DNA from: Chrysophaeum taylorii
Lineage: Eukaryota > Sar > Pelagophyceae > Pelagomonadales > Pelagomonadaceae
Assembly: GCA_029834535.1 (NCBI GenBank)
Contig: JAQMWT010000208.1
Coordinates: 1-64,000 of the forward strand
Length of the DNA stretch: 64,000 nucleotides
Direction of reading: 5' to 3'
In this document: positions 12,901 to 55,400 of the stretch, piece after piece
Position numbering within the stretch: position 1 is the first letter of the stretch
Layout of the letters: each line of letters starts with the position of its first letter
Made by a program: the position numbers and the translations under genes
The notes under the pieces: generated by a model
What the model saw: only the letters and a program-made list of their open reading frames with translations
Told to the model about the DNA's origin: nothing
Database searches by the model: none

Positions 12901-12909
12901 TTCTCACAA

Positions 12910-14545
12910 AGAGTCCAATCTCCGCAAACCTCCTGTCATGTTACTTTGTTCTGGCTTGTCAAATCCGGCGTTCCTGTCTCAAGCCACTAATGACTTAGGC
13001 TTAAATATCAATGTAAGTTGTTGTTGAGTCCGATGATACGCTTGTTCGTATGTTACGCCACCGTTTTCCTACTGTACTATTATTTGAATCTCCCCGCCTT
13101 TATTAACCACCTTCACCTAATCTCACCAGAGGAAAGGCGCACATTCTATTGTGCTGTAATTGAGATCCCTCCCTGCACAACAGGAATTTACTAAACAGCA
13201 GAAGACAGAAGACTTACACATCTGCTGGACGACTCCTTTTCGACAGCGTGTCTGTCATCAAGCTACTCCAGCCCTTGGTACTACTGGCTGAGATGACGCC
13301 TCCGCATGGTACTGTCATCAAGACCATCACAGTGGCCAACCTTATCCACTACAGCGACTGGTCGTATGTTGTTGATAGGTCCGACCTACCTCTGTGGCGA
13401 CTACCAATCTAGAGAAGGATGGATATGCATTGCACGCAGGTATTCTACTGGACCAATTAAACTATTGTCGTGGCCCATCATCCATCCACGCCCCTTCCTA
13501 AAGATCGTGGATGATCAACTTCGCATTCCCAAAGCGCCGTTGGCTACCTAACCATCAAGACTGGATCCGGTGTTCCCGATCCTCCATATATGCCGTTCCT
13601 AAAACTTTACTCTCTCGCGGGTTTTGCTGCTCAGCACTATGGCTGACCTTAAATCCCTTATGTGTGTTACTGTTGCCTTCACTCTCACAACGAACGCGAA
13701 CAACGCACCCTGTTCAATCCGAGTGTACGCACTCACTCTGTTCAATCCGAGTGTACTTTTCATCAGTTGGCTTTAAAGCTCCTCTGTGGAGCACGCCCAA
13801 TGCAACACATCATCCTTGCCGCGTCAAGGTTTTTGCATGCTATATAATTTGCCAACTTACACTGACTGCCATGCGTGTCCTATTAAACGTTTTTTAAACT
13901 ACAACCGTCACTGATTTGCTAACACGCATCGACATCACACAACACCATACTGGTGGCTGCCCACTCTGACGGCAACCTCACCATAGACGCCACCACCAAA
14001 CAGCCCAAACTCCCATCAAAGCGACGGACACCGTTCACTGCTTCCGACATCCCCCGCGACCGGGACAGGTCCATATATTTGGAGCCGTTTATGGGTTACT
14101 TGTGGATAGTCCAAGCCCTTACCCTGATCGCCGACAACGGTTGCGATGGAGGACGGTGCCTCATGAATCCTGAGCCTTGCGAGGGCATCCGCTCCCGGCG
14201 TAGGTTGGCACCTATTCGCCTCCCGGGCGGGCCGGTTGGCAGCCGGAACGTTCGCAGTGGGACGGGGTATGGCCCGGGGGCGAATACGGAAGGTTATCGA
14301 CGAGTTGGTTGTCAGTCACATCGCGGTCTCCTCGTCGCATGGCGACAAGCGATGGTCACTCTCCGCCGACCGACCTTTCGGCGCTCCTCGTCTGAGCCCG
14401 TGATTCCGGGCTGGCTCCTGTCGGTCCGGCCTGGCTCCATGCTCGGGAGGGTCTGAAGTTAGTTAGTTAGTAGTCCAAGCCCTTCCCAAGTTGGCTCCGC
14501 TGCCACCTATGGCACCGCCATACAAAACTTGTCAGATGCTCTCTT
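12910..14545 (+). pseudogene. Element A cytosine-5 DNA methyltransferase domain (broken)
   Basis: Same domain as in element B. Motif I reads VMLLCSGLSNPAFL near 12937, the PC box with catalytic cysteine IPPCTT has its Cys codon at 13174-13176, and motif VIII is QSREGWICIARR near 13408. The second arginine of Q-x-R-x-R is glycine here but arginine in B. Motif IX (RTPFTASDIPRD) is open at about 14026-14100. After the short LINE-derived insertion (14121-14470), motif X follows as SQVGSAATYGTAIQ. Stops and frameshifts between 13026 and 13560 make it inactive. Confidence 0.75.
14121..14470 (+). mobile_element. Short LINE-derived element (350 bp) inside element A
   Basis: Flanked by a perfect 14-bp direct repeat TAGTCCAAGCCCTT (14107-14120 and 14471-14484). 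Its first part resembles the L2 leader (GATGGAGGACGG; GCCTCCCGGGC...GGCCGGTT). Its last part is the LINE 3' end with a GAAGTTAGTTAGTTAG tail. It has no protein and was presumably moved by the LINE machinery. Confidence 0.85.
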
Positions 14546-15072
14546 GTGATGCCTGGCTGCCTTACCTACAAGGCCACCGACAACTCTTTCGATTACACGG
14601 ATTCTCTTTTTGCTCTGGAAGATCACCACTTATCTCGTAGTCGTATATAGGGTACCTTCGTGGAAGTGACCGCAAACTCGGCTCTAAAATTCACTCAATG
14701 CTTGCTCCATTGCCAACCGTAGGCCAATATTATTTTACTCGACCCTCGCAACGGGAAATTACGCTACCCCACTCGACCGGAGTTGATTCGTGCTAACAAC
14801 CACCAAACAACAGGATATCTTCCTCTTGTCTCTACGCCATGACCTTTGCTGTGACATGCTCAGCAGTCTGCCTGCCGGTACGTACAGCATCGTATGGCAC
14901 CGGCGCTCCTCGTTGCCGATATTAAATCCCTTATGTTGGACCCTACCTTCCATAGCTGCCGTGACTAAGAAATCCTATGTATCCAATTTCATGACCATTG
15001 AATCAAGCTCACCACGTAGCACATATACCTTGCCTTTGGCACAAGCTTTATGATGTCTATTTCCAGCAACTG

Positions 15073-15096
15073 CTGACCGAAATGTCGTTAAACTAT
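15073..15096 (+). other. Junction motif 2 (methyltransferase / integrase), element A
   Basis: Encodes L-T-E-M-S-L-N-Y then I-S-S, between the methyltransferase C-terminal region and the integrase. Confidence 0.8.
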
Positions 15097-17182
15097 ATAT
15101 CGTCGTCCTACGAAGATACTCTCGTACTCGTGATGATGAGGATGCACCTCAAGTGACCCTGCTGCGCACCAGGATGACGACGCACCGCCGCTTCCACCTT
15201 GACACCGAACTCAAGTTCGATGTTCGGCGCAAACGGCATTCCCGCTCATCAATTCCTAAAGTCCCTACACGGATCCACTATCTCAATGCCAAAGAACGTG
15301 CCAATCGCTTTCCACCGGGTGCATCACTGCCCCGACAACGTGCTGCCAAGGCCCCCACGTACTTGCTCGCCCTGGATTCTCTGCTTCTGACATACCATCG
15401 CGACTTATGCACCGACTGCATCGCACACAACAAGCGCCACCCACAAGCATTTCAATGCGACCAAGCCTTCTTTGAGCAAACTCACAAAGCCGGCGAAGTC
15501 TGGGCGTGCGACGGCGGCTATGTGACCATCCCATCCGAATGGGGAGGCTTCACACATATCATCTTCTTCAAGGAACTCATCAAATTTCTCTTTGTGTACA
15601 CACGCACCACCAACGCCACGGGTTCACTCAAGCTCTGGATTTTGTGTATGACTGTCGTACACAACTCAACGTGCACATGCGCACCACTCGCTCCGTCAAA
15701 GCCCTTCAGCCAGCACATTACCTCCCCGTACCGCGTCGATAAGGGCATTCAACTCATCGCCTTCCCGCCGTACATGCACCACTTTAACTTTGAAGTTGAG
15801 TCTGCCATCGGTTTCATCGCCTCCGCCTCCTCAACTCGCCTTCGTTCTCTCCTTAATGCTCACTATCGTGGCGCCAAGATCGTGGAACCAGCCATCATGT
15901 TCCCATGGGCGGTGATACACACTTCAAAGCTATACCCTCCCGAACGCCACGCTCGAGCGCATTCATCATGCTATCTGAGTCCGCAACAGCTACTCTACAA
16001 CCAACTCAACACCCAACACATGACGGCTCAAGATTTTGGCGCTGAATGTTACCTCTTATTGGAGCCCCATGAACACCACAAGTGGGAACCGTGCCGCCGC
16101 AAATATCGTATCTCTGTTGCGCCAACGCGCAAAACCGCTCGTCTCCCCACGCGTCGACCATCTCGCTGACGTCGTCCTCAACCCTGAAAACGGACAAATG
16201 TGTTTCGTCAAGCTGCAATTCCTCTACATGTTCAGCATCCTACTCCTGATCCTGAACTAGCTCCTCCGCTTCACGCTCCTCCCGCGCCTTTCTCGCTCAC
16301 ACCACACACCGCTATCCAAGACCATGTCATTCAGAGGGGGACAAGGACTCCTCATACTCAGAGGGGGCACTCCCCACCTCCTTCAGCTCCTTCTTCGTCC
16401 CCTACTCCTGCCTCTTCTCCCTCTTCTGACGCTCTCGCCGACGAATCTGGCTCTATGTCACCGCCGCCCTTGCTTCCTTCTTACAAAGACCTTTTTGCAC
16501 AAGATGACCTCATTCTTGTCCCAGGTTCCAAACAGCCTAACACTCGCAAGGCCACTTCTATGAAAACTATCCGAGCCCGGTTACAAGCGTCTACTATTGG
16601 TGCTTACAAAGCCGCTGGTGGCAAGCTCGCCGATTTCCGCTGGGATCTTCGCCACCACTTTCTTACGTTCAAGTCTCCCGCCCTCTCCGCCCTTCATCTC
16701 CGTGGTGGTATCCTCTGGTCTGCTATCTGCTCAGAGGGGGAACATGCGTTGTTAGCTCGTCTTCTTCTCCCGTTGCGCACTGACTTACTTGCCCGCTACC
16801 CGCACGTCGATGGTTACTTCGCCCACGCCAAGTGCGCATCCAGCATCCCAGCTGCAACCTTTTTAACTGCTGATGGTTCACCTACGTGCCCTATTCCTCA
16901 GCCCCTTTTATCTGCGTTCACTGAACACGCTGCTGCCTTCGGCACTTCTTCCTTACAATATGCACTTACGTACCTGGCGCCGACCAGCTTATTGATCACA
17001 ACTCATCCGAGTTTGGCGCTACTTCTGCATCTCTGGCTGACTTGGAGGAATACCTTCTGGTCTCTACAGAGTTTATCACCCAGGTCTTACGTACCGACCC
17101 TACTATCCATATCCAACTGGAATCTGCCCCTACTACTCCTACTGACGCTGTTTCCGCTTATCCCGAAGTTGCGCACACTGCC
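15097..17182 (+). pseudogene. Element A integrase
   Basis: The frame 15153-16169 carries an N-terminal His/Cys region ending LCTDC and the rve core: first Asp in VWACDGGYV (about 15505), second in the damaged stretch near 15685, and the glutamate region FNFEVESAIGF near 15790. Downstream (16200-17180) lies a long, low-complexity Pro/Ser-rich C-terminal region, as in other copia integrases. Frameshifts at about 15680 and 16100 break it. Confidence 0.7.
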
Positions 17183-17206
17183 TCGACCGCAACGTCGCTA
17201 AACTAT
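17183..17206 (+). other. Junction motif 3 (integrase / RT), element A
   Basis: Encodes S-T-A-T-S-L-N-Y then N-S-P, just before the RT. It has a synonymous C/T change in the Leu codon relative to the other copies. Confidence 0.8.
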
Positions 17207-19074
17207 AATTCACCAGCCATTGTTGGTCCTGACGAATATAAGGTCCAAGAAGCGGACGTTTCCATTGACGAATATAAACTTAAGTGCCTCCACGGTTTGT
17301 CGCCTGAAAACAGGCACGCCTACCTCAAGGCCATCGCCAAGGAACTCCACGACATTATCCGCTTTGGCTGCTTCAAACTTTCCTTACCCGACGGTGTCTC
17401 TCGTCCTATTGACAGCAAGATGGTGCTGAAGATTAAAACAGACTCTGCAGGCAAATACGTTAAGCACAAGGCTCGCCTCGTACTACGTGGCTTCCTAGCA
17501 TCTCTTGGCGCCGATTTCTTTGGTACCTTCAGCCCCATGGCCACCATGACCGCAATCCGGGTACTACTAGCTATTGCAGCATACAAGCAATTGCCTGTCT
17601 ACCATGCAGACGTCCCGAACGCCTTCGTTCAGTCTGACATCGATGCCAATGTCTATGTTCAGTTACCAGACGGCATCAAGCTTATCGACCCCGATGACGC
17701 TAAGTACAAGGGCCGACGTCTACCGAAACTGCTGAAGTCACTTTATGGACTTCGGCAATCACCATCCCTTGGAACAAAGAGATAGACGGCTTCTTCCGTA
17801 GCCTTGGCTACAAACGCCTGCATTCGGACTCTTGCCTATATGCTCGAGTATCCGCACATGCTAAGTTCGTCGTATGCAGTCTGTCTGTAGACGACATTGT
17901 TATTGTGTCCAATGACGACCCTCTTCGTACTGAATTACAGGATGCCCTCCACAAACGGTATGCTGTAGAGCAGTTTGAACCTGTCCATACCCTCCTAGGC
18001 ATGCGTGTGTGTCGCACATCTGACGGTTCCATTTCTCTGGATGTGCAAGCCAAGCTGGATGAACTCTTCGCTGATCACCCAGTCTTGCAGCAACTGACCC
18101 CGCTTAAATATCCTATGTCATCGTCCTTCAAGTATAAAGATGGCACTCCCAGCTCTGAAACAGAGTTGTACATCAATTCGCACTTTGCCACCCTCCTTGG
18201 CAAGCTGGTGTTCATGCAAGTTGCCTGCAGACCTGACTTCTCGCAAGCCTTGGGCAGATGTTCGCGTGGTATGCATGCACCTACGTATGTTCACGTCCAA
18301 ATGCTAGAGCATTTGCTTCGCTACCTCAAGAAGCCGGAAAACCGCTCACTTCGCCTCTGGTTCCATCCTAAAGGTAATGCCATTGAAGCTCACCTTCGCA
18401 CTGTCTCCGCTAATCGAATTGATCTATCCACTGTGGTCGACTACCAACCGCAGGATGTATCTACTGGACAGTTTGACCCCTTAGTTGCCATGGTTGACGC
18501 TGACAATGCCCCTTCCTTAGCACAGGAAGATAGGAAATCTACCACCGGGTTTGTCTTCTATCTTTTCAACTGCCTTATTGGTTGGAAAAGCAAACTTCAA
18601 CCGATTGTCTCCTGCTCAACTCACGAAGCTGAGTTGATTGCCCTCAGTATTTGTGCTGATGAAGCTGTTTGGCTACGCAAGCTGCTGTTGGAACTCTCCT
18701 TTGTCGTCAACCCCACCTTCTACGTCAACAATGCTAATGGTGAGAACACCGCTGATCATGTCGACTTCGATGACAATGACAACCCAATTGCTGAAGATAT
18801 GCGCTTCATCAGAAGCCTACCTCTCTTGTCTGACAATGCTGCCGCTGTTCACACCTCTAATAACCCAGATGGGTCCTCTCGATCCAAGGCACTGTCGACC
18901 AGATGGTTTAAAATCCGTGAGTACATCTCGCTACAGAAAATACGAGTCCATCATGTTCCCGGCAAGCTGAACGTGGCGGATGGTTTTACAAAGCCACTTG
19001 CTGCTGAGTTCTCCACTTTTCGTTCTCTACTCGGTATGCATCATGCTTCTGACGACAAGCCTTTACAGGATTGA
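17207..19074 (+). pseudogene. Element A reverse transcriptase and RNase H
   Basis: Copia-type RT: KARLVLRGF, YHADVPNAFVQ (motif A aspartate) and KSLYGLRQSPS, then after a one-base loss near 17770 the catalytic box LSVDDIVIV (17884-17895). The box has S-V-D-D where copia elements normally have Y-V-D-D or F-V-D-D. RNase H follows: VAMVDADNAPSL, KSTTGFVFYL, CSTHEAELIAL, ending LNVADGFTKPL. The frame 17905-19074 is open for 389 codons. B has the same SVDD. Confidence 0.85.
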
Positions 19075-19089
19075 AGATGCCTAACTCTA

Positions 19090-19113
19090 GTGTCCGGAAC
19101 GTCGTTAAACTAG
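19090..19113 (+). other. Junction motif 4 (end of RNase H), element A
   Basis: Lies 17 bases past the pol stop. In the pol frame it would read V-S-G-T-S-L-N and then TAG in place of the Tyr codon. In the downstream 3' ORF it is read in a different frame. Confidence 0.65.
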
Positions 19114-20072
19114 CCCTGGCCTTACCTTCTTTTACCACAAATTTTTTGTACGCGGGCGAGTGTTGTTCATGTCTTCTCTTGACACTCCCGTGGCCGTGGC
19201 ATCTCACTAGTCGGTTGAAGGACAGTCCTTTCTCGCTCTCCACGGCCGAACTTTCCCCCAGGTTGTCGCAGAAGCAACGAACCATGACTGCTACAACTGC
19301 AACCACACTGGCTGCTGCGTTTGCACCGACACTAGCCGTGCATATCTCACCTCAGTCGCTGACGACGTTCCAGGACGGCCTCAGTATTGACTATGCTGCT
19401 TACAAGCGAGGAATCTCTCTCCTTGAGAACTTCCGTGTCCCTGTCACCCCATTTCTCTCTTCTTTTATGCGAGTGGAACGCACACTGACCTATGAGTCTA
19501 CTGACTTTTCATTGTTTGTAGACCTGACCACATTCATGTCCATGCGCTTACCCATTACTATACTTTGGGAGGCTGCTCCTGCTCTTGCTTCTATTGGCTG
19601 CTACAGATGCCCCAAACGCGAACGCTTCATTTTGTCGCTTTCCTTTTTTTACGCAGTGCCTCAACGATCGTGGACAACCGACTTTTCTAGTCTCGACCAC
19701 GTGCAGTTCCAACCGACTTTCCTAGTCTCGACCACGTGCAGTTCCAAGGCACAAACACCTCGTGAACTCCCCACTGAAGTGTCGAGTCACCTAAACACGG
19801 ACGACCATAAGAAGAATGGTCACATCCCCATTATCACAACACCGATCAGTTTACTTGTGACTCGTGTTCGAACACAGAGTCGCACAGCTCAGGCTATACA
19901 AGCCATCCATTCAGCATTTGATTACTACTGTTGCTCGATCGCGTGTACAACATCTTAACAACTACGCATCATCCTCTGATGATACAGAACCGCTATCACT
20001 CCGGGATGTAACGTTCGGCCACACTTATGTTCAGGCAGAACATTAAGGCTTCCTGCACTCCTTTTTTTAACG

Positions 20073-20096
20073 TTGACCGAAACGTCGTTAAACTAC
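20073..20096 (+). other. Junction motif 5 (inside 3' coding region), element A
   Basis: Encodes L-T-E-T-S-L-N-Y then S-H-S, in frame with the C-terminal half of the 3' region. Confidence 0.8.
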
Positions 20097-20879
20097 TCAC
20101 ACTCCACGCTAGACGCTACTCTGGAGATATCTTCACCACCGTTACCTACGCCTTCTGCTTCGCTTGCTGATTCCGACTTCTTGTGCCAAGAAGTCGACCA
20201 ACTCCAGGAAACTCTTCGAATCTATATTACGGAGGCTGCCATTGCTTCAATCACCTCCCTGGAGAACCGGCTCTTCCCTCCTACAGCCAACACCCACGTG
20301 TTACTTATACACTGTACAAGATCACAGAGCTGTTGTCTCGCTTAACACTCACCGCTCATGATCAACATGTTACCAACCACTCCTCCCCGGACGATCACCT
20401 CCTTCATCTACGTGACAAGTTGCTCTCATGCTTCAGAGCATTCCGTCCGCTCTCATGTGAATCTGAAGACTCTCCTATCTTCGTTCGCCAAGTCCAACCT
20501 TTTTTTTTGGAAAACCAACTGGACACCTTTCAACTAGATTCTCTGTCGCCATCCATACTGAATGCTCTACTTGCACTCACCCTTCTCTCGGCACCACATC
20601 ATTCAGCTATTGGTGTTCACCACCTTACAGCAGAAGCTGACGATGATTGATAATCCTAACACACTGTCTGTTGTTTCTGTGTTTCTTAATGTTCTGTTCA
20701 AAAGGGTCAAATCGACTCTCAGCTCCACCAAGTCCAAGTCCAAGTCCTAAGACCCGTATATACTCTTGATGCTTCGTACGTGACCTCTGTGACCATCAAG
20801 ACTGTATTCCCTCTTTTTTCTTCATCATCATCTTTCTCAAGAGATGCTCTACAGTCGCACCTTGCGCTTAAGACATCTC

Positions 20880-21176
20880 GAGGGGGTGCAGAGAAATCTG
20901 CTGCCTCTTACCCTTATCCGTCCGCTGAGAGCGTGATCTCTTCCTTACCCTTCTTCTTCCTTTCTACACAATCAAATAGTCCTCTGATTTGTGCCTACGC
21001 TCATCATCATGGTCTAGCGCGTCCCGAGGTATGTAGCACTATACACTTTACCTTTCTCGTGTAGTTCTAGATGCCGCCTGTCGTGTTCTGAGGATATAGG
21101 GAACATACCTTTTCATTCCCCGAATTAAATACTTCCAGACGTTCATGATGAGACGGGATGGTTTCCCAGGTGACTT
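20880..21176 (+). repeat. Element A polypurine tract and truncated 3' LTR
   Basis: GAGGGGG (20880-20886) is the plus-strand primer site. The LTR starts at 20887 and follows the 5' LTR to ...CAGGTGACTT at 21176. The last 25 or so bases present in the other LTRs are absent, replaced by GGTCTTG, 15 bp before the hAT element. Confidence 0.85.
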
Positions 21177-24310: not shown

Positions 24311-24395
24311 CTCCCCCATCGGGAATCGAACCCGAGCCGCCCGCGAACCGCTTTCGGATGACAGGCGGGAATACTGACCACTATACTATGGAGGA
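24311..24395 (-). tRNA. tRNA-Asp(GTC) with a 13-nt intron
   Basis: The minus strand folds as a full cloverleaf. Acceptor TCCTCCA pairs with TGGGGGA, the D arm is GTAT...GTAT, the anticodon stem CCCGC pairs with GCGGG, the anticodon is GTC, and the T arm is TCGGG-TTCGATT-CCCGA. The discriminator is G. Between positions 37 and 38 there is a 13-nt insert (TCCGAAAGCGGTT), the canonical intron site. A-box and B-box sequences are intact. The variable loop is 4 nt. Introns in tRNA-Asp are uncommon. Confidence 0.88.
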
Positions 24396-42654: not shown

Positions 42655-42813
42655 TTTCGGTTTCATCCTCCTTCACGGTGCGGATTCATGGTGCCTAACC
42701 GAGGTTGTCTACAATCACCTACGATGCTGTCACCTCGCTCGCGCGATGTGCCGCGTGTAACACGCGTCGCCAGAATACCTGGGAAAAACATCATATCAAA
42801 ACTTCAAACCACC
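42655..42813 (+). mobile_element. LINE L3 fragment, left of element B
   Basis: Encodes ILLHGAD then WCLTEVV and RAMCRV, with frame disruptions. It matches the L2 block ILLHGAESWCLTEVL ... RVMCRV. It is interrupted at 42813 by element B and resumes at 55219. Confidence 0.75.
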
Positions 42814-43128
42814 TGCAGAGCATTTAGCAAGCAGTGGTAAGTCACCTGGGAAACCACCCCTTCTCATCGTGAACGTCTGGAAGTGTTTAATTCGGGGAAT
42901 GAAAAGGTATGTTCCCTATATCCTCAGAACACGACAGGCGGCATCTAGAACTACACGAGAAATGTAAAGTGTATAGTGCTACATACCTCGGGACGCGCTA
43001 GACCATGGTGATGAGCGTAGGCACAAATCAGAGGACTATTTGATTGTGTAGAAAGGAAGAATAAGGGTAAGGAAGAGATCACGCTCTCAACGGACGGATA
43101 AGGGTAAGAGGCAGCAGATTTCTCTGCA
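42814..43128 (-). repeat. Element B 3' LTR (315 bp)
   Basis: Bounded by the 7-bp inverted ends TGCAGAG/CTCTGCA. The adjacent polypurine tract reads GAGGGGG on the minus strand (43129-43135). CCACC lies outside at 42809-42813. Confidence 0.92.
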
Positions 43129-43276
43129 CCCCCTCGAGATGTCTTGAGTGCAAGGTGCGACTGTAGAGCATCTCTTGAGAAAGATGATGATGAAGAAAAA
43201 GAAGGAAAAGAATGAGAATACAGTCTTGATGGTCGCAGAGGTCACATAAGAAGCATCAAGAGTATAGCAGAGTGTC

Positions 43277-45165
43277 TTAGGGCTTGGACTTGGTGGAGCT
43301 GAGAGTCGACTTGACGCTTTTGAACAGAGCATTACGAAACACAGGTACGACAGACAGTGTGTTAAAGCTATCTGAGGTGGTGGACATCGTTACTGGTTCG
43401 AGAGTATCGGTATCGTCTTCGTCAGCTTCTGCTGTCAGGTGGTGAACGCCAATAGCAGAATGGTGTGGTTCCATACGAAACGTGAGTGCAAGTAAAGCAT
43501 TCAGTAGGGATGGCATTAGTGAGTCAAGTTTTAGGGTGTCCAGTTGGTTTTCCAAGAAGTTGGACAGAGCGAACGGATCCGAGAGGATAGAAGGGTCTTC
43601 CGATTCACATGCGAAGGGAATGCTTTGAATACACGAGAGCAAATCATCACGCAGACGATGGAGGTGATCGTCCGGGGAGGAATGGTTGGCGGCATATTGG
43701 TCATGAGCGTTAGCATTAAGCGAGACAGCTCTGTGATCTTGAACAGTGTTACAAGCAACACGTGTGCATTGCTGTAGGAGGGAAGAGCCGGTTATCCAGG
43801 GAGGTAATTGAAGCAATGGCAGCCTGTAGATCTGTGCGCAGAGATGATTTCAGCGCTGAGGTGTTGACCTTGCGAATATGCGAAGAGTTTCCTGGAGTTG
43901 CTCGACTTGTCGACTCAATGCATCGACATCATCAGGCGAGGCAGAAGGAGCAGGATGTGTCGATGGCGAAGACATTTCCAGAGTAGATTCTGATGTGGGA
44001 AGTGAGTAGTTTAATGACGTTTCGGTCAACACATGCTGTGCAGGTAGGGGGTATTTCGTGTTTAGAAAGTGCAGAAAGTCTTGATGTTCTGCCGGAGTAT
44101 AGGTGGGGCCGAACATAACATCCAGGAGTGATAGCGGCTTTGTATAATCTGAGGATGATACGTAGTCGTCAAGATGTTGTGCCCACGATTGGACAACAGT
44201 ATTAATCACATGGTGGTATTTGGTGGCCTTGAACATAGCCTGAGTTTTACGAGCCTGTGTTCGCTCGAGAGTTACAATTAAGTTAAGATGCTCCAGGTGC
44301 ATCTGAGTAATAAGCCGAAGATCCAGTGCAAATGGCAGTTGAGTGGTGGAGTTCTGTGGCTGCATCGGTTACTGATAAGACTAAATGAGCAAGTGACGGA
44401 TGTTGCGGTAGACTGCTAGTCAAGAGAGTATGTAGCTCCTTTGGCAAATGATACGTGCGTATGATGGTTGCGCGTATATGACCAGCTGAGCACCCATCAC
44501 AGGAGGGTTGGAAGGAAGTAGCATTACGTGCACATAAGTTAGGTTGTATGGGTGCCTGATCGGTGTTGTGACAAGCGCAACAAATGTTAATGGTGATAGT
44601 TGAGATGGGGATGTGACCATTCTTCTTGTGGTCATCTGTGTTGAGGTGAGTAGGATGACAGAATGAAACGTTCACGTTTGGGGCCTCTGTAGCAGCCAAT
44701 AGAAGTAATAGCAGGAGCAGCTTCCCAAGATGTAGTAATGGGTAGGCGCATGGATATGAATGTCGTTAGTTCCACAAACAGTAAAGAGTCAGCAGATTCA
44801 TAGATCGAGTTGAGTACCGTAGAGATTTCCGCTCGCATAACAGAAGAGAGAAAGGGGGTAGCAGGAGTACGGAAGCTCTCAGAAAGAGAGTGTCCTCGTT
44901 CAATCAGGGCAAAATCCATGTTGAGGCCATCCTGGAGTGTTAGGGATTGTAGTGCAACAGGTTCGGCTGGTGTCGGTGAGACAGTAGCAGCCTGGGAGGT
45001 AGTAGGAGTGACAGAGGTTATGGGTTGTCGTTTTTTTGAGACAACTTGGGAGAAGGCTCGGTCGTGGAAAGCGAGCGTGGAATTGTCCTTCGAACGACTG
45101 GAGAGATGCCACGGCCACGGCCGCGGCCACGGGAGTGCCAAGAAAAAGACATGAGCGACACTCAC
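43277..45165 (-). pseudogene. Element B extra 3' coding region
   Basis: Frames 45165-44632, 44699-44283, 44365-43850 and 43816-43277 follow one another with small overlaps, as expected from frameshifts in one original reading frame or two. The start is Pro/Trp-rich and basic. A Cys/His cluster (CCACH, CARN, CDGCSAGH) at about 44580-44470 may bind zinc. Motif 5 is at 44005-44028. The last part is helical and ends STKSKP. Unrelated to any retroviral envelope I know: no signal peptide, no membrane span. The function is unknown. Confidence 0.65.
44005..44028 (-). other. Junction motif 5, element B
   Basis: Encodes L-T-E-T-S-L-N-Y then S-L-P, in frame with the 3' coding region. Confidence 0.8.
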
Positions 45166-45217
45166 ACGACACGTAAAAAAAATTGTGGCAAAAGGAAGAA
45201 AAGCCAGGGCTAGTTTG

Positions 45218-45241
45218 CTAGTTTAACGACGTTGCGGTCAC
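45218..45241 (-). other. Junction motif 4, element B
   Basis: Lies just past the pol stop. In the pol frame it reads V-T-A-T-S-L-N followed by TAG where the other copies have a Tyr codon. The pol frame reaches it only through a TGA about ten codons earlier. Confidence 0.7.
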
Positions 45242-45256
45242 TAGGGTTAGACATCT

Positions 45257-47124
45257 TCAATCCTGTAAAGGATTGTCGTGAGAGGCATGATGCATACCGA
45301 GTAGAGAACGAAAAGTGTAGAACTCAGCAGCAAGTGGCTTTGTAAAACCATCCGCCACGTTCAGCTTGCCGGGAACATGATGGACTCGTATTTTCTGTAG
45401 CGAGATGTACTCACGGATTAAAAACCATCTGGTCGACAGTGCCTTGGATCGAGAGGACCCATCTGGGTTATTAGAGGTGTGAACAGCGGCAGCATTGTCA
45501 GACAAGAGAGGTAGGCTTCTGATGAAGCGCATATCTTCAGCAATTGGGTTGTCATTGTCATCGAAGTCGACATGATCAGCGGTGTTCTCACCATTAGCAT
45601 TGTTGACGTAGAAGGTAGGGTTGACGACAAAGGAGAGCTCCAACAACAGCTTGCGTAGCCAAACAGCTTCATCAGCACAAATACTGAGGGCGATCAACTC
45701 AGCTTCGTGAGTTGAACAGGAGACAATCGGTTGAATTTTGCTTTTCCAACCAATAAGGCAGTTGAAAAGATAGAAGACAAACCCGGTGGTAGATTTCCTA
45801 TCTTCCTTTGCTAAGGAAGGGGCATTGTCAGCGTCAACCATGGCAACTAAGGGGTCAAACTGTCCAGTAGATACATCCTGTGGTTGGTAGTCGACCACAG
45901 TGGATAGATCAATTCGATTAGCGGAGACAGTGCGAAGGTGAGCTTCAATGGCATTACCTTTAGGGTGAAACCAGAGGCGAAGTGAGCGGTTTTCCGGCTT
46001 CTTGAGGTAGCGAAGCAAATGCTCTAGCATTTGGACGTGAACATACGTGGGTGCATGCATACCACGCGAACATCTGCCCAAGGCTTGCGAGAAGTCAGGT
46101 CTGCAGGCAACTTGCATGAACACCAGCTTGCCAAGGAGGGTGGCAAAGTGCGAATTGATGTACAACTCTGTTTCAGAGCTGGGAGTGCCATCTTTATACT
46201 TGAAGGACGATGACATAGGATATTTAAGCGGGGTCAGTTGCTGCAAGACTGGGTGATCAGCGAAGAGTTCATCCAGCTTGGCTTGCACATCCAGAGAAAT
46301 GGAACCGTCAGATGTGCGACACACACGCATGCCTAGGAGGGTATGGACAGGTTCAAACTGCTCTACAGCATACCGTTTGTGGAGGGCATCCTGTAATTCA
46401 GTACGAAGAGGGTCGTCATTGACACAATAACAATGTCGTCTACAGACAGACTGCATACGACGAACTTAGCATGTGCGGATACTCGAGCATATAGGCAAGA
46501 GTCCGAATGCAGGCGTTTGTAGCCAAGGCTACGGAAGAAGCCGTCTATCTCTTTGTTCCAAAGGGATGGTGATTGCCGAAGTCCATAAAGTGACTTCAGC
46601 AGTTTCGGTAGACGTCGGCCCTTGTACTTAGCGTCATCGGGGTCGATAAGCTTGATGCCGTCTGGTAACTGAACATAGACATTGGCATCGATGTCAGACT
46701 GAACGAAGGCGTTCGGGACGTCTGCATGGTAGACAGGCAATTGCTTGTATGCTGCAATAGCTAGTAGTACCCGGATTGCGGTCATGGTGGCCATGGGGCT
46801 GAAGGTGCCAAAGAAATCGGCGCCAAGAGATGCTAGGAAGCCACGTAGTACGAGGCGAGCCTTGTGCTTAACGTATTTGCCTGCAGAGTCTGTTTTAATC
46901 TTCAGCACCATCTTGCTGTCAATAGGACGAGAGACACCGTCGGGTAAGGAAAGTTTGAAGCAGCCAAAGCGGATAATGTCGTGGAGTTCCTTGGCGATGG
47001 CCTTGAGGTAGGCGTGCCTGTTTTCAGGCGACAAACCGTGGAGGCACTTAAGTTTATATTCGTCAATGGAAACGTCCGCTTCTTGGACCTTATATTCGTC
47101 AGGACCAACAATGGCTGGTGAATT
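45257..47124 (-). pseudogene. Element B reverse transcriptase and RNase H
   Basis: RT frame 47289-46363 (VKHKARLVLRGF, YHADVPNAFVQ, KSLYGLRQSPSLWNKEI, LSVDDIVIV with codons at 46435-46446) overlaps frame 46456-45257, which carries the rest of the thumb and RNase H (DADNAPSL, KSTTGFVFYL, STHEAELIAL, LNVADGFTKPL). The only break is next to the SVDD box, where B differs from A. The catalytic box is S-V-D-D in both copies. Protein identity with A is nearly complete by eye. Confidence 0.88.
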
Positions 47125-47148
47125 ATAGTTTAGCGACGTTGCGGTCGA
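47125..47148 (-). other. Junction motif 3, element B
   Basis: Encodes S-T-A-T-S-L-N-Y then N-S-P immediately before the RT. Confidence 0.82.
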
Positions 47149-49280
47149 GGCAGTGTGCGCAACTTCGGGATAAGCGGAAACAGCGTCAGTAGGAGTAGTA
47201 GGGGCAGATTCCAGTTGGATATGGATAGTAGGGTCGGTACGTAAGACCTGGGTGATAAACTCTGTAGAGACCAGAAGGTATTCCTCCAAGTCAGCCAGAG
47301 ATGCAGAAGTAGCGCCAAACTCGGATGAGTTGTGATCAATAAAGCTGGTCGGCGCCAGGTACGTAAGTGCATATTGTAAGGAAGAAGTGCCGAAGGCAGC
47401 AGCGTGTTCAGTGAACGCAGATAAAAGGGGCTGAGGAATAGGGCACGCAGGTGAACCATCAGCAGTTAAAAAGGTTGCAGCTGGGATGCTGGATGCGCAC
47501 TTGGCGTGGGCGAAGTAACCATCGACGTGCGGGTAGCGGGCAAGTCAGTGCGCAACGGGAGAAGAAGACGAGCTAACAACGCATGTTCCCCTCTGAGCAG
47601 ATAGCAGACCAGAGGATACCACCACGGAGATGAAGGGCGGAGAGGGCGGGAGACTTGAACGTAAGAAAGTGGTGGCGAAGATCCCAGCGGAAATCGGCGA
47701 GCTTGCCACCAGCGGCTTTGTAAGCACCAATAGTAGACGCTTGTAACCGGGCTCGGATAGTTTTCATAGAAGTGGCCTTGCGAGTGTTAGGCTGTTTGGA
47801 ACCTCGGACAAGAATGACGTCACCTTGTGCAAAAAGGTCTTTGTAAGAAGGAAGCAAGGGCGGCGGTGACATAGAGCCAGATTCGTCGGCGAGAGCGTCA
47901 GAAGAGGGAGAAGAGGCAGGAGTAGGGGACGAAGAATGAGCTGAAGGAGGTGGGGAGTGCCCCCTCTGAGGATGGGGAGTCCTTGTCCCCCTCTGAATGA
48001 CATGGTCTTGGATAGCGGTGTGGGGTGTGAGCGAGAAAGGCGCGGGAGGAGCGTGAAGCGGAGGAGCTAGTTCAGGATCAGGAGTAGGATGCTGCAACAT
48101 GTAGAGGAATTGCAGCTTGGACGAGACACGAATTTGTCCGTTTTCAGGGTTGAGGGCGACGTCAGCGAGATGGCCGACGCGTGGGGAGACGAGCGGGTTT
48201 TGCGCGTTGGCGCAACAGAGATATAAATATTTGCGGCGGCACGGTTCCCACTTGTGGTGTTCATGGGGCTCCAATAGGAGGTAACATTCAGCGCCAAAAA
48301 TCTTGAGCATATCGTGTTGGGGAGTGTTGAGTTGGTTGTAGAGTAGCTGTTGCGGACTCAGAATAGCATGATGAATGCGCTCGAGCGTGGCGTTCGGGAG
48401 AAGGTTATAGCTTTGAACGGTGTGTATCACCGCCCATGGGAACATGATAGTGGGCTCACGATCTTGGCGCCACGATAGTGAGCATTAAGGAGAGAACGAA
48501 GGCGAGTTGAGGAGGCGGAGGCGATGAAGCCGATGGCAGACTCAACTTCAAAGTTAAAGTGGTGCATGTACGGCGGGAAGGCAATGAGTTGAATGCCCTT
48601 ATCGACGCGGTACGGGGAGGTAATGTGCTGGCTAAAGTAGGGCTTGAATGCATCGGAGTAGAGGGTGCGCATGTGCACGTTGAGTTGTGTACGACAGAAG
48701 TCATACACAAAATCCAGAGCTTGAGTGAACTCCGTGGCGTTGGTGGTGCGTGTAAAGTACACCAAGAGAATTTCGTAATGAGTTCCTTGAAGACGATGAT
48801 ATGTGAAGCCTCCCCATTCGGATGGGATGGTCACATAGCCGCCGTCGCACGCCCAGACTTCGCCGGCTTTGTGAGTTTGCTCAAAGAAGGCTTGGTCGCA
48901 TTGAAATGCTTGTGCGGGTGGCGCTTGTTGTGTGCGATGCAGTCGGTGCATAAGTCGCGATATGGTATGTCAGAAGCAGAGAATCCAGGGCGAGCAAGTA
49001 CGTTGGGGGCCTTGGCAGCGACGTTGTCGGGGCAGTGATGCACCCGGTGAAAGCGATTGGCACGTTCTTTGGCATTGAGATATTCGGTGGATCCGTGTGC
49101 GATTGACTTACGAGGAATGGGATGAGCGGGAATGTGCCGTTTGCGCCGAACATCGAACTTGAGTTCGGTGTCTAAGGTAGGGGAAGGCGGTGCGTCGTCA
49201 TCCTGGTGCGCAGCAGGGTCACTTGGAGGTGCATCCTCATCATCACGAGTAACGAGAGTATCTTCGTAGGACGAAGATAT
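47149..49280 (-). pseudogene. Element B integrase
   Basis: The N-terminal His/Cys region lies near 49040-48950 (FHRVHHCPDN ... LCTDC). The rve core is in frame 48951-48427: first Asp in VWACDGGYV, second in TLYSDAF 64 residues later, glutamate in FNFEVESAIG about 35 residues after that, fitting the D-D-35-E layout. The usual copia N-G-x-x-E-R context is replaced by F-N-F-E-V-E. A long Pro/Ser-rich C-terminal region continues in frame 48445-47573. Frame changes at about 48950, 48440 and 47580 interrupt it. Confidence 0.8.
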
Positions 49281-49304
49281 ATAGTTTAACGACATTTCGG
49301 TCAA
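49281..49304 (-). other. Junction motif 2, element B
   Basis: Encodes L-T-E-M-S-L-N-Y then I-S-S, between methyltransferase and integrase. Confidence 0.82.
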
Positions 49305-49829
49305 GCAGTTGCTGGAAATAGACATCATAAAAGCTTGTGCCAAAGACAAGGTATCTGTGCTGCACGTGGTGGAAGCTTGATTAATGGTCATGAAATTGGA
49401 TACATAGGATTTCTTAGTCACTGCAGCAGTATGTTGGAAGGTAGGGTCCAACATAAGGGATTTAATATCGGCAACGAGGAGCGAAAGGTGCTTGTACAGA
49501 GTGCTGTACGTACCGGCAGGCAGAGCATTGCTGAGCATGTCACAGCAAAGGTCATGGCGTAGAGACAAGAGGAAAGATTCCTGTTGTTTGGTGTGGTTGT
49601 TAGCACGAATCAACTCCGGTCGAGTGGGGTAGCGTAATTTCCCGTTGCGAGGGTCGAGTAAAATAATATTGGCATACCCTCGGACGGTTGGCAATGGAGC
49701 AAGCATTGAGTGGATTTTAGAGCCGAGTTTGCGGTCACTTCCACGAAGGTACCCTATATAGCGACTATGAGATAAGTGGTGATCTTCCAGAGCAAAAAGA
49801 GAATCCTTGTAATCGAAAGAGTTGTCGGT

Positions 49830-51594
49830 GGCCTTGTAGGTAAGGCAGCCAGGCATCACAAGAGCGCATCTGGACAAGAGTTTTTGTATGGCGGTGCCAT
49901 AGGTGGCAGCGAAGCCAACTTGGGGAAGGGCTTGGACTATCCACAAGTAACCCATAAACGGCTCCAAATATGGACCTGTCCCGGTCGCGGGGGATGTCGG
50001 AAGCAGTGAACGTATAACTAACTAAACTAACTTCAGACCTCTCCCGAGCATGGGAGCCAGGCCGGACCGACAGGAGCCAGTCCGGAATCACGGGCCTGTA
50101 GACGAGGAGCGCCGAAAGGTCGGTCGGCGGAGAGTGACCAGCAAGCTTGTCGCCATGCGACGAGGAGATCGCGATATGACTGACAACCAACTCGTCGATA
50201 ACCTTCCGTCTTCGCCCCGGCCATACCCCGTCCCACTGCGAACGTTCCGGCTGCCAACCGGCCCGCCCGGGAGGCGAATAGGTGCCAACCTACGCCGGGA
50301 GGGCGGATGCTTTCGCAAGGCTCAGGATTCATGAGGCACCGTCCTCCATCGCAACCGCAGTCGGCGATCAGGGAACGTATACGTGCTTCCAAACGCTTTG
50401 ATGGGAGTTTGCTGTTTGGTGGTGGCGTTCTCTATGGTGAGGTGTGGTGGCGTTCTCTATGGTGAGGTTGCCGTCAGAGTGGTGGCCACCAGTTAAGAAG
50501 TAGGAGTTGTGTGCTGTTGATGAGGTTGTAAGTAATAACCTGTGTGACGGTTGGTTAGTTTCGAAAACGGTTATGTAATAGGATACAGGAGTGGGTGAGT
50601 TAGTGTGTAAGCTGGCAAACAAGCTATAGAAGATTGTAAAAACCTTGACGTGTATAGGATATGTTGCATTGGGTAGTGGCTCCATAGAGGAGCGTTTAAA
50701 GCACAACTGATGATAAGTACACTCGGATTGGACAGAGTGAGTGCGTTGTTCGTGAGCCTGTTGTGAGTGAAGGCGAAGCAGTAACATATTGGGGGATTCA
50801 AGGTCAGCCATAGTAAGCTGAGTAGAACCTGTGCGAGAGTAAGGTGCAAAAGTTTTAGGAACGGGGACATATGGAGGATCGGGAAACACCCGGATCCAGT
50901 CTTTGGATACGAGGTTAGGTAGCCAAAGGCGCTTGGGAATAGCTTGTAGATCATCCACGATCTTTAGGAAGGGGCGTGGATGGAGGATGGGCCACGATAA
51001 TAATTTAATTGGTCCAGTAGAATACCTGCGTGCAATGCATATCCATCTTTCTCTAGATTGGTAGTCGCCACAGAGGTAGGTCGGGAACCTATCAACAACA
51101 TCGACACAGTAATCAAGTGTAGTATGGATAAGGTTGGCCACTGTGATGTGGTCTTGATGACAGTACTTATGCGGAGGCGTCATCTCAGCCAGTAGTACCA
51201 AGGGCTGGAGTAGCTTGATGACAGACAACATGCTGTCGAAAAGAGAGTCGTCCAGCAGGCTGTGTAAGTCTTCCGTCTTTTGCTGTTTTAGTAAATTCCT
51301 GTTTGTGCAGGGAGGAGTGATCTCAATTATATCACAATAGAATGTGCGCCTTTCCTCTGGTGAGATTAGGTGAAGGTGGTTAATAAAGGCGGGGAGAGAT
51401 TCAAATAATAATACAGTAGGAAAACGGTGGCGTAACATACGAACAAGCGTATCATCAGACTCAACAACAACTTTTACATTGATATTTAAGCCTAAGTCAT
51501 TAGTGGCTTGAGACAGGAACGCCGGAGTTGACAAACCAGAACAAAGTAACATGACAGAGGGTTTGCGGAGATTGGACTCTTGTGAGAGAAACAC
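49830..51594 (-). CDS. Cytosine-5 DNA methyltransferase domain carried by copia element B
   Basis: Frame 51594-50368 is open for 409 codons. Motif I is VMLLCSGL (residues 14-21), followed by an acidic ESDD. The PC box is EITPPCTN with catalytic Cys 96 (codon 51309-51307). Motif VI is LLAEM with Glu 137. Motif VIII is QSRERWICIARR with R181 and R183. Cys to Glu is 41 residues and Glu to the second Arg is 46; M.HhaI has 38 and 46. After the target-recognition region, a LINE-derived insertion (50017-50372) interrupts the gene, then motif IX (FTASDIPRD) and motif X (PQVGFAATYGTAIQKLL, about 49923-49870) follow across one frameshift. All key catalytic residues are present. It lies within the polyprotein between protease and integrase. 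As it stands the domain is cut, but its catalytic half is intact. Confidence 0.85.
50017..50372 (-). mobile_element. Short LINE-derived element (356 bp) inside element B
   Basis: Same family as 14121-14470, flanked by a 9-bp direct repeat GAACGTATA (50008-50016 and 50373-50381). It is inserted some 90 bp upstream, in element coordinates, of the site used in A, so the two insertions are independent. Confidence 0.85.
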
Positions 51595-51609
51595 TGGGCG
51601 TGAGAGTAG

Positions 51610-52650
51610 TCAGGTTAATGGCTGCGTGTTTTGCTGAACAAACTTGTTCTGTTTCCGAAGATTGAGAACCAAAGGGCGAATCCACGGGCGATCTGGTAAA
51701 ACTCTTTGGAGTAGGTAGTTGTAGTATGCCAGTAGATCCCTGTTTTCATGGTATCGCTTGAGGGGAAATGCGAGCGAGCGAAGTTCCAGCCGCTTGTCGC
51801 GCGCGATGTTGTAAGTGAGACAAGGGAGAGCGGGTAAATTAGCTGCTACATAGTGTATGGGTATACGTACATCTTTGTCTATGCGGCTCGTGACAGCGCT
51901 GAGCTTTGGCTCAGCTCGATCATTGAACACAGTGGTCAGGTTCGTCTGGTTCCACTCGAGCATGCTCAGGATAGCGAGATGTCGGTCATGCACTGGCTGA
52001 AGACATAAAGCGAAGTCGATCTTAACATAGCCAACTTGTGGATGATCTGGTAGGGGAATAACGATGTTACGTGTTAACATCATGTGTGATGCCCGTTGTT
52101 GTCCTGTAGCCGTCTGAATAACAATCGGCGCGTATTTGGAGTCCAATGGAATTATATGATTGGGTATTGCGAAATCGTAAGTGGACATCAATGAGATGGT
52201 AGCACAAGAGTCAAAATATAGAAAAGAGCAATGTGGAGGGACACTGTTTACCTTCATGTAGTTGGTGAGGAAGGCGTTTTCCGAATGTGGGCAAGTAGTG
52301 GAGAGGCTGGCTGTAAAGAAGTTCTTCAGCAATAACAGATTCGTTGGAATAATGATCGGTTGAACAGGTGGTGATGGTTCGTCAGCCTCATCAGCCATGC
52401 CGTGCTTTTCATCAAATGACGATAGCGAAGTATGATCGGCATCCCTTTTGGTTTCGGCTTGTGATGGTGTGTTGAGGGCAGATTGGACCTGTGAAGATAG
52501 CGAGGACAATAATGCTGGTGGTAAAGCCGAGATGGCGGAAGCGGTAAAGAGGTTAGACACAGTATTGGAAGGATTACCCTGTGTGTTTGTAGTAGGAGGA
52601 GTTGTTGTTGGGGTGGGAGCAGTAACGACAGTATGGTGTTGTGGCTCCAC
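51610..52650 (-). pseudogene. Element B aspartic protease region
   Basis: Open within frame 53094-51610. The active site is FDSCATISLM (codons at 52212-52201), with Cys where copia proteases have Gly. Downstream are hydrophobic strands (IVIQTATGQQ, VGYVKIDFAL, HLAILSMLEW) like the protease fold. The following stretch up to the methyltransferase has no known domain. A frame break at about 51600 separates it from the methyltransferase frame. Confidence 0.65.
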
Positions 52651-52674
52651 GTAGTTTAACGACTTTTCGGTCGA
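52651..52674 (-). other. Junction motif 1, element B
   Basis: Encodes S-T-E-K-S-L-N-Y then V-E-P, between gag and protease, in an open frame. Confidence 0.82.
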
Positions 52675-54375
52675 GGATAGATGAACGTCTACATCATAAA
52701 TGATGTCTTCTGCAAACATGAGCTGTTCGTTTAGACGAAGTAAACTACTGTTGTCCTCAGTAGATGTCGTTGACAGAATGTCAGCTGATTGTAATGGAGT
52801 CTCAAATAACTTGTTGATATTATGTTGTAGCTGAGCCGTGGTATCATTATCTGTCACATGCTTCGTAAGTTCACTACACTGTTCTCGCAGGGTGTTTAAG
52901 GTGTGATTTGTTCGATCTAATAATTTCATGTTAGATCGAGAGGACCTGTCAAAAGTGCGGGGGTAAATTGGGCGATCATGGGACTGTCCTGTAGTTTTCT
53001 TGGTGACATAAGAATCACCAGAACGGTAGTATGATAAATCGCTGCGAGAGAAAGGCTTGCGAGTATCATTAGGAGTTATGCAAGCGTCTAGCATTGAATG
53101 TGGAAGATGTACCAGGTTGAGACGCAGTGATGAAGGCGAGTGTGTTAGCAGTTTGAGTCAGACTTTTGTCTACTAAATCTAGCGTGTTTGTAAGTAGTAA
53201 CTTTGGCTTTGGTTGAGATGATAAACCTTCGACATAGGGTTGCCAAGAAACAGGGCGTTCTAAGCGTCTTTTGTTCGACCCATTTGATACTACATTGTAT
53301 AGGTCTAATGCGCATTCTAAAATGTAGCTAGGGTTGGTAGGGTGACACAATCGTTCAGCTTCTGGCACAGGCCGAGATGAAGATCGGGTTTCATACATAT
53401 AACACCAATCTACCCAACCACGATCGTAACGATTGTTGCTGGTATTATCGGCATAATGCCGATGTATCTCTTCATAGATTTTTCTACAAAGAGTACCAAA
53501 GTCGAATTGAAGGTCAGTCTCTTCCTGGTTAAGTTGGTAAGAGATTTGCCTAAATGCTAGGACAGCTTCGATAAATACATGGACATACCAGTTAGGATTA
53601 TAAACAACAGAGTTAAATTGCTGTTTCAAATAGGACACATCAGTAGTCGTAACAGACTCGTAGTGACTAAAGGCGATGAGCATAATAGCTCGAGAGCCTT
53701 GTTGGGTAAATAACTTTTGTTGTATATCTCATTGATGGCGGGCCAGGCCGCAAGTGCCGGTTTTCCAACACTTTCAAGATTGAAGTAAGTATGCAAGAAT
53801 GTAGCGTACGTGTTCTGGTAAGTGTGCCAGTCAGCTGCAGTTAACGAAAACATGGTAACAGGGGCACGAACACGGGTGTCGAAAGCTAGTGCCTTCGGGT
53901 GCGCGCGATTTAAGATTCGTTCCTCTTCTAAGAAACGAGCATTGATTTCAGGACGTAATGCCTTGACTTCATAGTCGTAACAGACAGTAGCTAGCTGAGC
54001 TACTTCTGCATCAGGCAAGTGGGGGAAAGCTTCGTTGGTGAAATGCCATTCCTGATACTCAGGGGGCAATTCATCTAGATCGGCAGCCCTATCGGTCTTC
54101 CATTCCAAGAAAACGCGATCGAGAATTTGATTTCGGAGGATCTCGTAGTCCTTGCATGACCGAGCATATGCTTCGTACGAGTCGTACTCGAGGAAGGCAT
54201 CGGCATGACTGGACCGTAACAATTGCTTAACGTGCTTGATTTGCAAGGATACCTTGCGAGTCTGAAGCTGAAATCGATTTCCGTCGTTAAGAAACTCAAC
54301 TACAGGAGCTTCGAGCTTCAATATATCCGCACCTGTGATCGCCTTGGGTGCGGCTCGTGCTGCGTGTTCTGCCAT
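52675..54375 (-). pseudogene. Element B gag-like region
   Basis: Starts ATG at 54375 (MAEHAARAAPKAITGAD). The first frame ends at 53626, the second runs 53683-53069 and the third starts near 53094. Content is mainly helical, with no CCHC knuckle. The overlap at 53626-53683 gives the same frame change as in A, but by a different indel (CTCTCG here, a lost A there). Comparison of the two suggests that the ancestral frame was continuous (N-K-A-R-A-I-M). Confidence 0.75.
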
Positions 54376-54888
54376 AGCAGTTGACGGGGGAACCTGTGGG
54401 TTCAGTCACGCAGTTGACACCGTCTTGACATTCTAAGGGGGTCTGTCTATCGGTGTCTATGTACACTCATCGATTTTTTCGATGGAAAATGTGTCTGTAT
54501 GCCGACTGTGCAAGCTGTGAGTCCAGAGTAGTGTCGCTAAGCGTAGTCACTCAGGCAGCTGGTTAGTTTTGGTGCTCTCAAGGAGCTTGTTAAGTGCATT
54601 GCCATGGAATGTACGAGTGGACGTACCCAAAATATTCCATAACATGTGTGCAAGAGTACAGGTTAGCCAAATACACACACATCAACATTGACATGACAAT
54701 ACGATGCTATGAACAGGTGCACACAAGGTTGCGCGATCACGTGTGCAACAAAAAAATTATATACAGCCCAATGGTAATGACGTTGTACTTACAAGTGTGT
54801 TTTCGTGGCGAGGCTAAGTCGGAGCGGTAACGACCCAATACCCATAGGTTACGTGCGCGTTTTAAAACATGGTTTCTCAGGGACCCGC

Positions 54889-54902
54889 CTGGGCCCATAA
54901 CC
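54889..54902 (-). promoter_or_regulatory. Element B primer-binding site (half tRNA-iMet)
   Basis: The minus strand reads GGTTATGGGCCCAG directly after the LTR, identical to A and complementary to the anticodon arm of initiator tRNA. Confidence 0.82.
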
Positions 54903-55218
54903 TGCAGAGCATTTAGCAAGCAGTGGTAAGTCACCTGGGAAACCATCGCGTCTCATCGTGAACGTCTGGAAGTATTTAATTTCGGGGAATGAAAAGGTAT
55001 GTTCCCTATATCCTCAGAACACGACAGGCGGCATCTAGAACTACACGAGAAATGTTAAGTGTATAGTGCTACATACCTCGGGACGCGCTAGACCATGATG
55101 ATGAGCGTAGGCACAAATCAGAGGACTATTTGATTGTGTAGAAAGGAAGAAGAAGGGTAAGGAAGAGATCACGTTCTCAACGGACGGATAAGGAAAAGAG
55201 GCAGCAGATTTCTCTGCA
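54903..55218 (-). repeat. Element B 5' LTR (316 bp)
   Basis: Same 7-bp inverted ends as the other LTRs. The target duplication CCACC follows at 55219-55223. Confidence 0.92.
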
Positions 55219-55400
55219 CCACCTCCAGCCCCTTGGCCTGGATATTATCGACATCTACATCGCTCGCCGACAAGTCCGATGGGCAGGCTATGGTGCCCGC
55301 ATGCCCTTGAAACCCCTCTCTCGGATTCAAGATGATCTCCTCCTGGCGCGCCTCCTATTTGTTACCCCCGCGGGTCGGGTCGGGTCGGGTCCCCACGTAA
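55219..55400 (+). mobile_element. LINE L3 fragment, right of element B
   Basis: Joined to 42655-42813 it continues the LINE frame: LGLDIIDIYIARRQVRWAG ... MPLKPLSRIQDDLL, matching LGLESIDVYVTRRQLRWAG in L2. It therefore marks the element interrupted by B. Confidence 0.75.

Follow-up and report, generated by a model that had tools for sequence, protein, structure and literature searches.

Copia-type LTR retrotransposons of the pelagophyte Chrysophaeum taylorii appear to have captured a C5-cytosine methyltransferase (MTase) into their polyprotein. The capture is supported at the level of element families, not in the damaged copies in which it was first noticed: the two elements (A and B) of our window, the stretch of 64,000 nucleotides that was analysed, are both broken. 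The fuller explanation, to which we assign a probability of about 55%, is that several Copia families have retained the MTase in their Pol polyprotein, where it would be made at the Pol level, packaged, and used before integration to methylate the double-stranded cDNA of the element itself, with host DNMT5 maintaining the mark.

Element B (Table 1) has TG...CA ends and a purine tract before its 3′ LTR, both read from the sequence. Its gag-like ORF has no Pfam match, and no Pfam protease was matched in the gag–protease (PR) region, where FDSCATIS is, we assume, the aspartic protease motif; the equivalent region of another copy, L039, is a single frame of 892 aa. RNase H is assigned by eye, from what we take to be its motifs. 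The first-pass annotation placed an MTase at 49830-51594, within the Copia polyprotein. The core does lie inside this interval, but 49830-50430 is taken up by a SINE-like insert (50017-50373) and linker rather than MTase; the polyprotein claim holds for families F1 and F2 (fused frames of L037, L018 and L019), but in element B the UGA splits the MTase from gag–PR, and a frameshift plus the insert split it from the integrase (IN). Where B carries the insert, L037 has one open frame. An array of 8-bp units adjoins element B, from window position 55772 to at least 56500 (the end of the searched region).

Table 1. Positions of element B, element A and their parts in the window
Feature	Position	Strand	Remarks
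Element B, Copia-type LTR retrotransposon (F1), 12.4 kb	42814-55218	-	LTR pair 96.3% identical
Target duplication of element B, CCACC, 5 bp	42809-42813 and 55219-55223		Read from sequence
5′ LTR, element B	54903-55218	-	Ends placed by eye
Gag-like ORF (gag start)	53629-54405	-	92% identical to ORF 7229-8431 of L037
Gag C-terminal part and putative aspartic protease	51613-53157	-	FDSCATIS seen by eye
In-frame UGA then CUA at gag–PR/MTase boundary, putative readthrough site	51610-51612	-	
ORF with MTase	50371-51609	-	413 aa, between protease and integrase of element B
Predicted C5-cytosine MTase core, residues ~15-240	50890-51567	-	Motifs I (weak), II, IV, VI, VIII
Predicted catalytic Cys codon, Cys101	51307-51309	-	Motif IV (PPC-T)
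C-terminal part, residues 241-393	50431-50889	-	41-42% identical to L030 (F3)
SINE-like insert, ~350 bp	50017-50373	-	TTAG repeats at 3′ end; interrupts polyprotein, outside MTase
Linker and start of integrase region	48834-50021	-	93% to L037 residues 418-788
Integrase region and SH3-like domain, frame-broken	47576-48969	-	SH3_retrovirus E 5.6e-5, below curated cut-off
Reverse transcriptase, RVT_2 (Copia type)	46366-47544	-	E 1.3e-37
Reverse transcriptase end and RNase H region	45260-46465	-	RNase H seen by eye
3′ LTR, element B	42814-43128	-	Ends placed by eye
Element A, second F1 copy, opposite orientation	9345-21176	+	LTR pair 96.2%
MTase region of element A, frame-broken	12882-13996	+	

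Judged through its relatives, on which the case rests, the window ORF encodes a very divergent predicted C5-cytosine MTase core. Stretches that we take to be motifs I (VMLLCSG, weak), II (VVVESDD), IV (DIIEITPPCT), VI (VLLAEMTPP) and VIII (GDYQSRERW) follow one another in 50371-51609(-), so that of the motifs originally read in order I (weak), IV, VI and VIII stand but IX and X are not confirmed; residues 241-393 are a possible target-recognition part. Direct searches are negative: a Pfam scan of the window protein alone yields no family at E<=10, PF00145 included, phmmer against the PDB returns no methyltransferase and a single unrelated row (E 0.49), and an F1-only profile retrieves two unrelated PDB rows and zero MTases. 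Because Pfam and solved structures give no methyltransferase match, a plain domain scan would discard the window MTase. A single-sequence AlphaFold model (pLDDT 32.7) has no usable fold. Among PHROGs, the sole family for the window protein is phrog_116, DNA methyltransferase (E 0.0083, residues 39-205). We also used a C5-MTase profile free of element sequences, composed of a host DNMT2-like protein and seven proteins from phages (annotation: methylase or methyltransferase for six, hypothetical for the one from Moraxella; three reached via an F2 query and four via the DNMT2-like query). It scores the window protein at 16.4 bits, against 9.0 for the best of 20,000 shuffles (0/20,000 as high); of the 211 window ORFs reported it comes top, with the runner-up at 4.9 bits. 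The expected significant profile match thus fails with PF00145 for the window copy and is obtained only through relatives and through this profile. By hhalign, F1+F3 align with the C5-MTase set at E 2.5e-5 (probability 75%, 171 columns) with motifs II, IV, VI and VIII in register, and F2 at E 5.6e-13 (97.9%). Of the 46 PDB rows that a mixed F1+F2 profile reports at E<=10, 43 are C5 MTases (best 8yf3, 1.5e-6; M.HhaI, 0.0011; DNMT1 and DNMT2 also present). Its alignment with M.HhaI spans residues 64-179 and needs few gaps, bearing out the catalytic spacing first proposed.

The whole-genome search that had been suggested (assembly of 70.8 Mb, 697 contigs) finds open copies elsewhere. This genome has 84 chlorophyll-binding matches and a plastid rubisco large subunit, features of an alga; the rubisco looks to be of the red type, as would suit an ochrophyte and perhaps a pelagophyte. 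F1 occupies at least 101 places including the window (103 matching stretches; scored places of 1371 candidates), the 100 beyond the window being 82-97% identical. In L037 (F1) a single 1691-aa frame starts with the MTase (1-389) and runs on through a linker and the integrase region to reverse transcriptase (RT; RVT_2 1431-1651, E 7.7e-42). Ahead of RVT_2 come rve (784-866, E 0.0076) and SH3_retrovirus (E 5.6e-4), each below its cut-off, and the order fits an integrase upstream of RT as far as such weak matches go. F2, with at least 120 matching stretches (113 scored of 669 candidates), joins PF00145 and RVT_2 in one open frame in L018 (1868 aa) and L019 (1952 aa); its PF00145 matches (5e-7 and 1.1e-7 in L018 and L019, and 4.1e-9) are above the cut-off, compared with one of 12 F1 rows, at 0.011. 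F3 was found via a stretch of L030 that resembles the part C-terminal to the MTase core (at least 126 matches to that stretch; 123 scored of 1133 candidates). Only one piece of F3 core was read, 199 aa without a stop in L043; it shares 51% identity with the window and retains SPCT, MEMTPP and QARER; alone, it gives weak matches to PF00145 (E 0.33) and phrog_116 (E 0.31), and its 5.9 bits against the C5 profile are attained by 3/20,000 shuffles of the longer window protein.

The frame-broken, Pfam-negative window copies could by themselves suggest an assembly chimera, or a host gene beside a retrotransposon. The number of F1 places, a motif-IV pattern matched at no fewer than 107 F1 sites and single frames of 1691-1952 aa already refute this, as does co-location with RT. 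Rows for that comparison were picked by hand from F1 and F3, with F2 outside it (all 150 RT rows, 101/103 F1 rows, 100/126 F3 rows and 41/76 junction sites). Of 1670 RVT_2 candidates 150 places were scored, and no fewer than 64 of these have an F1/F3 mark upstream on the same strand: 30 F1 MTase, 23 F3 homologue of the part beside the core and 11 F1 junction. The other 86 are unassigned, the MTase rows compared being a capped set, and at least eight of them have, by eye, an F1 motif-IV site 2.9-5.2 kb upstream. For the F1 MTase or F3 homologue alone the count is 53/150 on the same strand, and it drops to 0 when the strand is flipped.

P100, C101, E142 and R188 are invariant in the A1 alignment (nine rows, F1 and F2), and Cys is present at 70 of the 71 F1 motif-IV sites with letters read (69 TGC, 1 TGT; the exception is Tyr). 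The Thr pointed out earlier in the PC box recurs in 12/12 F1 rows and the single F3 piece. SAM-binding motif I, FxGxG, is only partly kept (LLCSGLS in F1, IIAGGLH in F2) and motif VIII of F2 has degenerated to ISKTR, which leaves both SAM binding and activity in doubt; methyl transfer to DNA by the F1 and F2 domains is a prediction from their sequences. Pooled dN/dS, computed on open frames only (a choice that depresses the values of every domain in the same way), is 0.106 for the F1 MTase core (12 copies, 65 pairs), 0.228 for the C-terminal part, 0.239 for linker and for integrase, and 0.167 for RT (four copies only). Corresponding F2 values are 0.138 for the MTase (20 copies, 190 pairs), 0.123, 0.334, 0.102 and 0.129. 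The core is therefore the lowest of five F1 Pol parts and mid-range in F2; in the most divergent quarter of F1 pairs (highest dS), MTase (0.089) and integrase (0.085) are alike. Between F1 and F3, pS reaches 0.84-0.89 while the proteins are 50-52% identical and the motifs retained. The pattern looks like that of a domain required by the element, with at least two families apparently under purifying selection. Eroded motif I in both families and the F2 motif VIII would also suit a catalytically dead MTase fold, retained in Pol for a structural or DNA-binding role; the invariant Cys101, Glu142 and Arg188, the near-universal F1 Cys and the strongest constraint among F1 Pol parts make that unlikely.

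DNMT2, which turned into a tRNA enzyme, offers a parallel for another alternative: an RNA-binding fold or RNA methyltransferase whose target would be element RNA or primer tRNA instead of cDNA. The divergence of motifs I and VIII and the PC-T of F1 are compatible with it, and RNA methylation is raised for SymbioLINE-Dnmt in PMC5890265. The best profile matches are nonetheless DNA methyltransferases: phrog_116, phrog_363 and TIGR00675 dcm, the last in five of nine A1 rows, a set that includes five F2 rows and in which the window row has no dcm match. Among the PDB rows DNMT2 stands beside M.HhaI and DNMT1, and none of these matches settles the substrate. We regard an RNA target as improbable, and prefer DNA methylation.

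Expression of the MTase would depend on how ribosomes leave gag. In F1 the gag–PR frame ends in UGA and MTase–IN–RT continues in phase (in L039, the 892-aa frame, a stop, then 1230 aa). Eleven further F1 copies comprise eight with UGA-CUA, one with UGA-CCA, one with UGA-CUG and one (L038) interrupted by other sequence; a TAAC-repeat stretch sits at the L038 junction. Genome sites matching the junction flanks have TGA in 75/76 cases and TTA in 1/76, in a search that demanded identical flanks including CUA and hence favours young copies. CUA after UGA was enough for efficient readthrough in reporter tests, as far as the available text of PMC4207609 goes, and we infer UGA-CUA readthrough in F1. 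The F2 pol frame (L019, L026 and L029) begins with a putative protease and overlaps gag by ~37 bases, one base back. Within the overlap the run CTTTTTCG is retained in 19/21 distinct aligned copies, and F2 would reach pol by -1 frameshifting at this T run. Related elements of one genome thus show two routes to pol, an in-frame UGA in F1 and apparent -1 frameshifting in F2.

Pol-level products of LTR elements are packaged with RT and integrase. With the order gag–PR, then MTase, integrase, RT and RNase H, an F1 ribosome would get to the MTase only through UGA-CUA readthrough and an F2 ribosome through the -1 frameshift; because it would be expressed at the Pol level, behind the UGA or frameshift, the MTase would probably be packaged with RT and integrase in the virus-like particle. 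There it would encounter double-stranded cDNA before integration, most likely methylating the element's own cDNA. A new copy would arrive pre-marked, host DNMT5 could maintain the mark, and the element would presumably benefit.

PF00145 has at least 57 listed matches in the genome (123 scored of 474 candidates): 49 F2, one DNMT5-like, one DNMT2-like and six outside the comparison. The DNMT5-like host protein (L017:3968-9499; G000:C621) has DNA_methylase and SNF2 in one frame, 1844 aa long in the fetched stretch and 2086 aa in the genome. A 360-aa protein (L028:4322-5401; G000:C634), DNMT2-like by a motif we take as diagnostic, is the genome's best PF00145 match among the matches listed. Among these, with exons searched separately, no DNMT1- or DNMT3-like protein was recognised, a weak negative. 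DNMT5 is reported in pelagophytes and other stramenopiles in the accessible part of PMC9998398. Across nine stretches of the elements CpG observed/expected is 0.91-1.04, and TpG and CpA are elevated; the ratio is 1.22-1.28 for three flanks in the window and 1.31-1.44 at three host-gene loci. Such depletion is the pattern that methylation would leave; host DNMT5 can also cause it, as can lower GC, and the elements are lower in G+C than the window flanks. More speculatively, and to our minds quite improbably, the Copia MTase could be the main or only nuclear de novo cytosine methyltransferase, placing CG marks on its own cDNA and on host DNA: leaky expression of many copies would mark host DNA, host DNMT5 would only copy the marks, and the host methylome would be seeded by a parasite. 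A fungal DNMT5 reportedly only maintains marks; if the DNMT5 here does the same, a de novo role of the element is directly testable.

Compared directly by hhalign, F1 and F2 match only weakly (E 0.036 and 0.026, at probabilities <2%), so F1/F3 and F2 may derive from one capture or from two. The F2 profile scores the window protein at a level attained by 1/20,000 shuffles (2/20,000 with a smaller alignment), and the F1 profile gives 0/20,000 for L026 and 22/20,000 for L019; for the F3 piece against the F2 profile, 1151/20,000 shuffles of the longer window protein are as high. A tree that omits DNMT3 groups F1/F3 with F2, though with weak support for a single origin (82/78, with a long-branch warning). 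In phages, tblastn with the F2 MTase of L022 finds eight records, some near-duplicates, of which the seven annotated are all DNA methylases; the best match has E 3e-6 and the rest 0.008-0.09, apart from a duplicate of the best. In viral contigs, none of 118 pattern stretches for F1 relatives and none of three for F2 relatives was confirmed.

The first-pass annotation pointed to methyltransferase capture in dinoflagellates and a charophyte, and the precedent is sound: de Mendoza 2018 (PMC5890265), in the portion available, describes cytosine MTases in LINE and DIRS elements of Symbiodinium and Gypsy elements of Klebsormidium. SymbioDIRS-Dnmt3, SymbioLINE-Dnmt and KnitGypsy-Dnmt3 resemble the present elements in that the coding sequence of a retrotransposon contains a C5 MTase (within Pol for DIRS and Gypsy), in high copy number (Symbiodinium) and in purifying selection similar to that on RT. 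When tested in yeast, two SymbioDIRS domains methylated CG de novo; those from LINE and Gypsy gave no methylation, a result that PMC5890265 terms inconclusive. Those elements differ in host lineage and in not being Copia, Symbiodinium Copia being described in the same portion as lacking any DNMT. A 2025 paper (PMC12344493) does name Copia as a DNMT bearer ('LTR Copia' DNMT3 elements), in a single sentence of its available text that cites PMC5890265, which has Gypsy in the streptophyte, and may be a slip; that text names streptophytes and dinoflagellates and no stramenopile. Diatom Copia elements are likewise Ty1/copia, most putative active ones with at most one stop or frameshift between gag and pol, but have the order PR, IN, RT, RNase H in the part of PMC2806351 available, and 'methyltransferase' and 'methylase' are absent from its main text.

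F1 also has the in-frame UGA before its MTase, and F1 and F3 have QSRER and QARER at motif VIII, unlike what we take to be the DNMT3 form. Bacterial and phage C5 MTases (TIGR00675 dcm, phrog_116, M.HhaI) share colinear motifs II, IV, VI and VIII, whereas the present domain has an eroded motif I, PC-T (F1 and F3) and its embedding in Pol. Titles and abstract beginnings in the literature covered, which leaves out most subscription journals, include no Copia DNMT in a stramenopile. A Copia DNMT in this lineage therefore looks new, the published bearers of cytosine MTases being LINE, DIRS and Gypsy elements. Copia elements, and probably stramenopile algae, would join the known range of DNA methyltransferase capture. 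Methyl marks are often used by cells to silence transposable elements, and these families offer a testable system for asking why a transposon would carry the mark that silences transposons.

Element A, for which the same domain was claimed, does contain the region, at 91.6% identity to element B over 9344-13996, but frame-broken. Its 3′ LTR is truncated, no target duplication was seen, and the junction pattern with TGA lies at 12865-12886. A ~350-bp insert with TTAG repeats, probably a SINE, is found in both elements (14122-14471(+) in A, 50017-50373(-) in B) at sites ~90 bases apart; in A its likely target duplication is TAGTCCAAGCCCTT. At gathering scores Rfam gives a single match in the window, a tRNA gene at 24311-24395(-).
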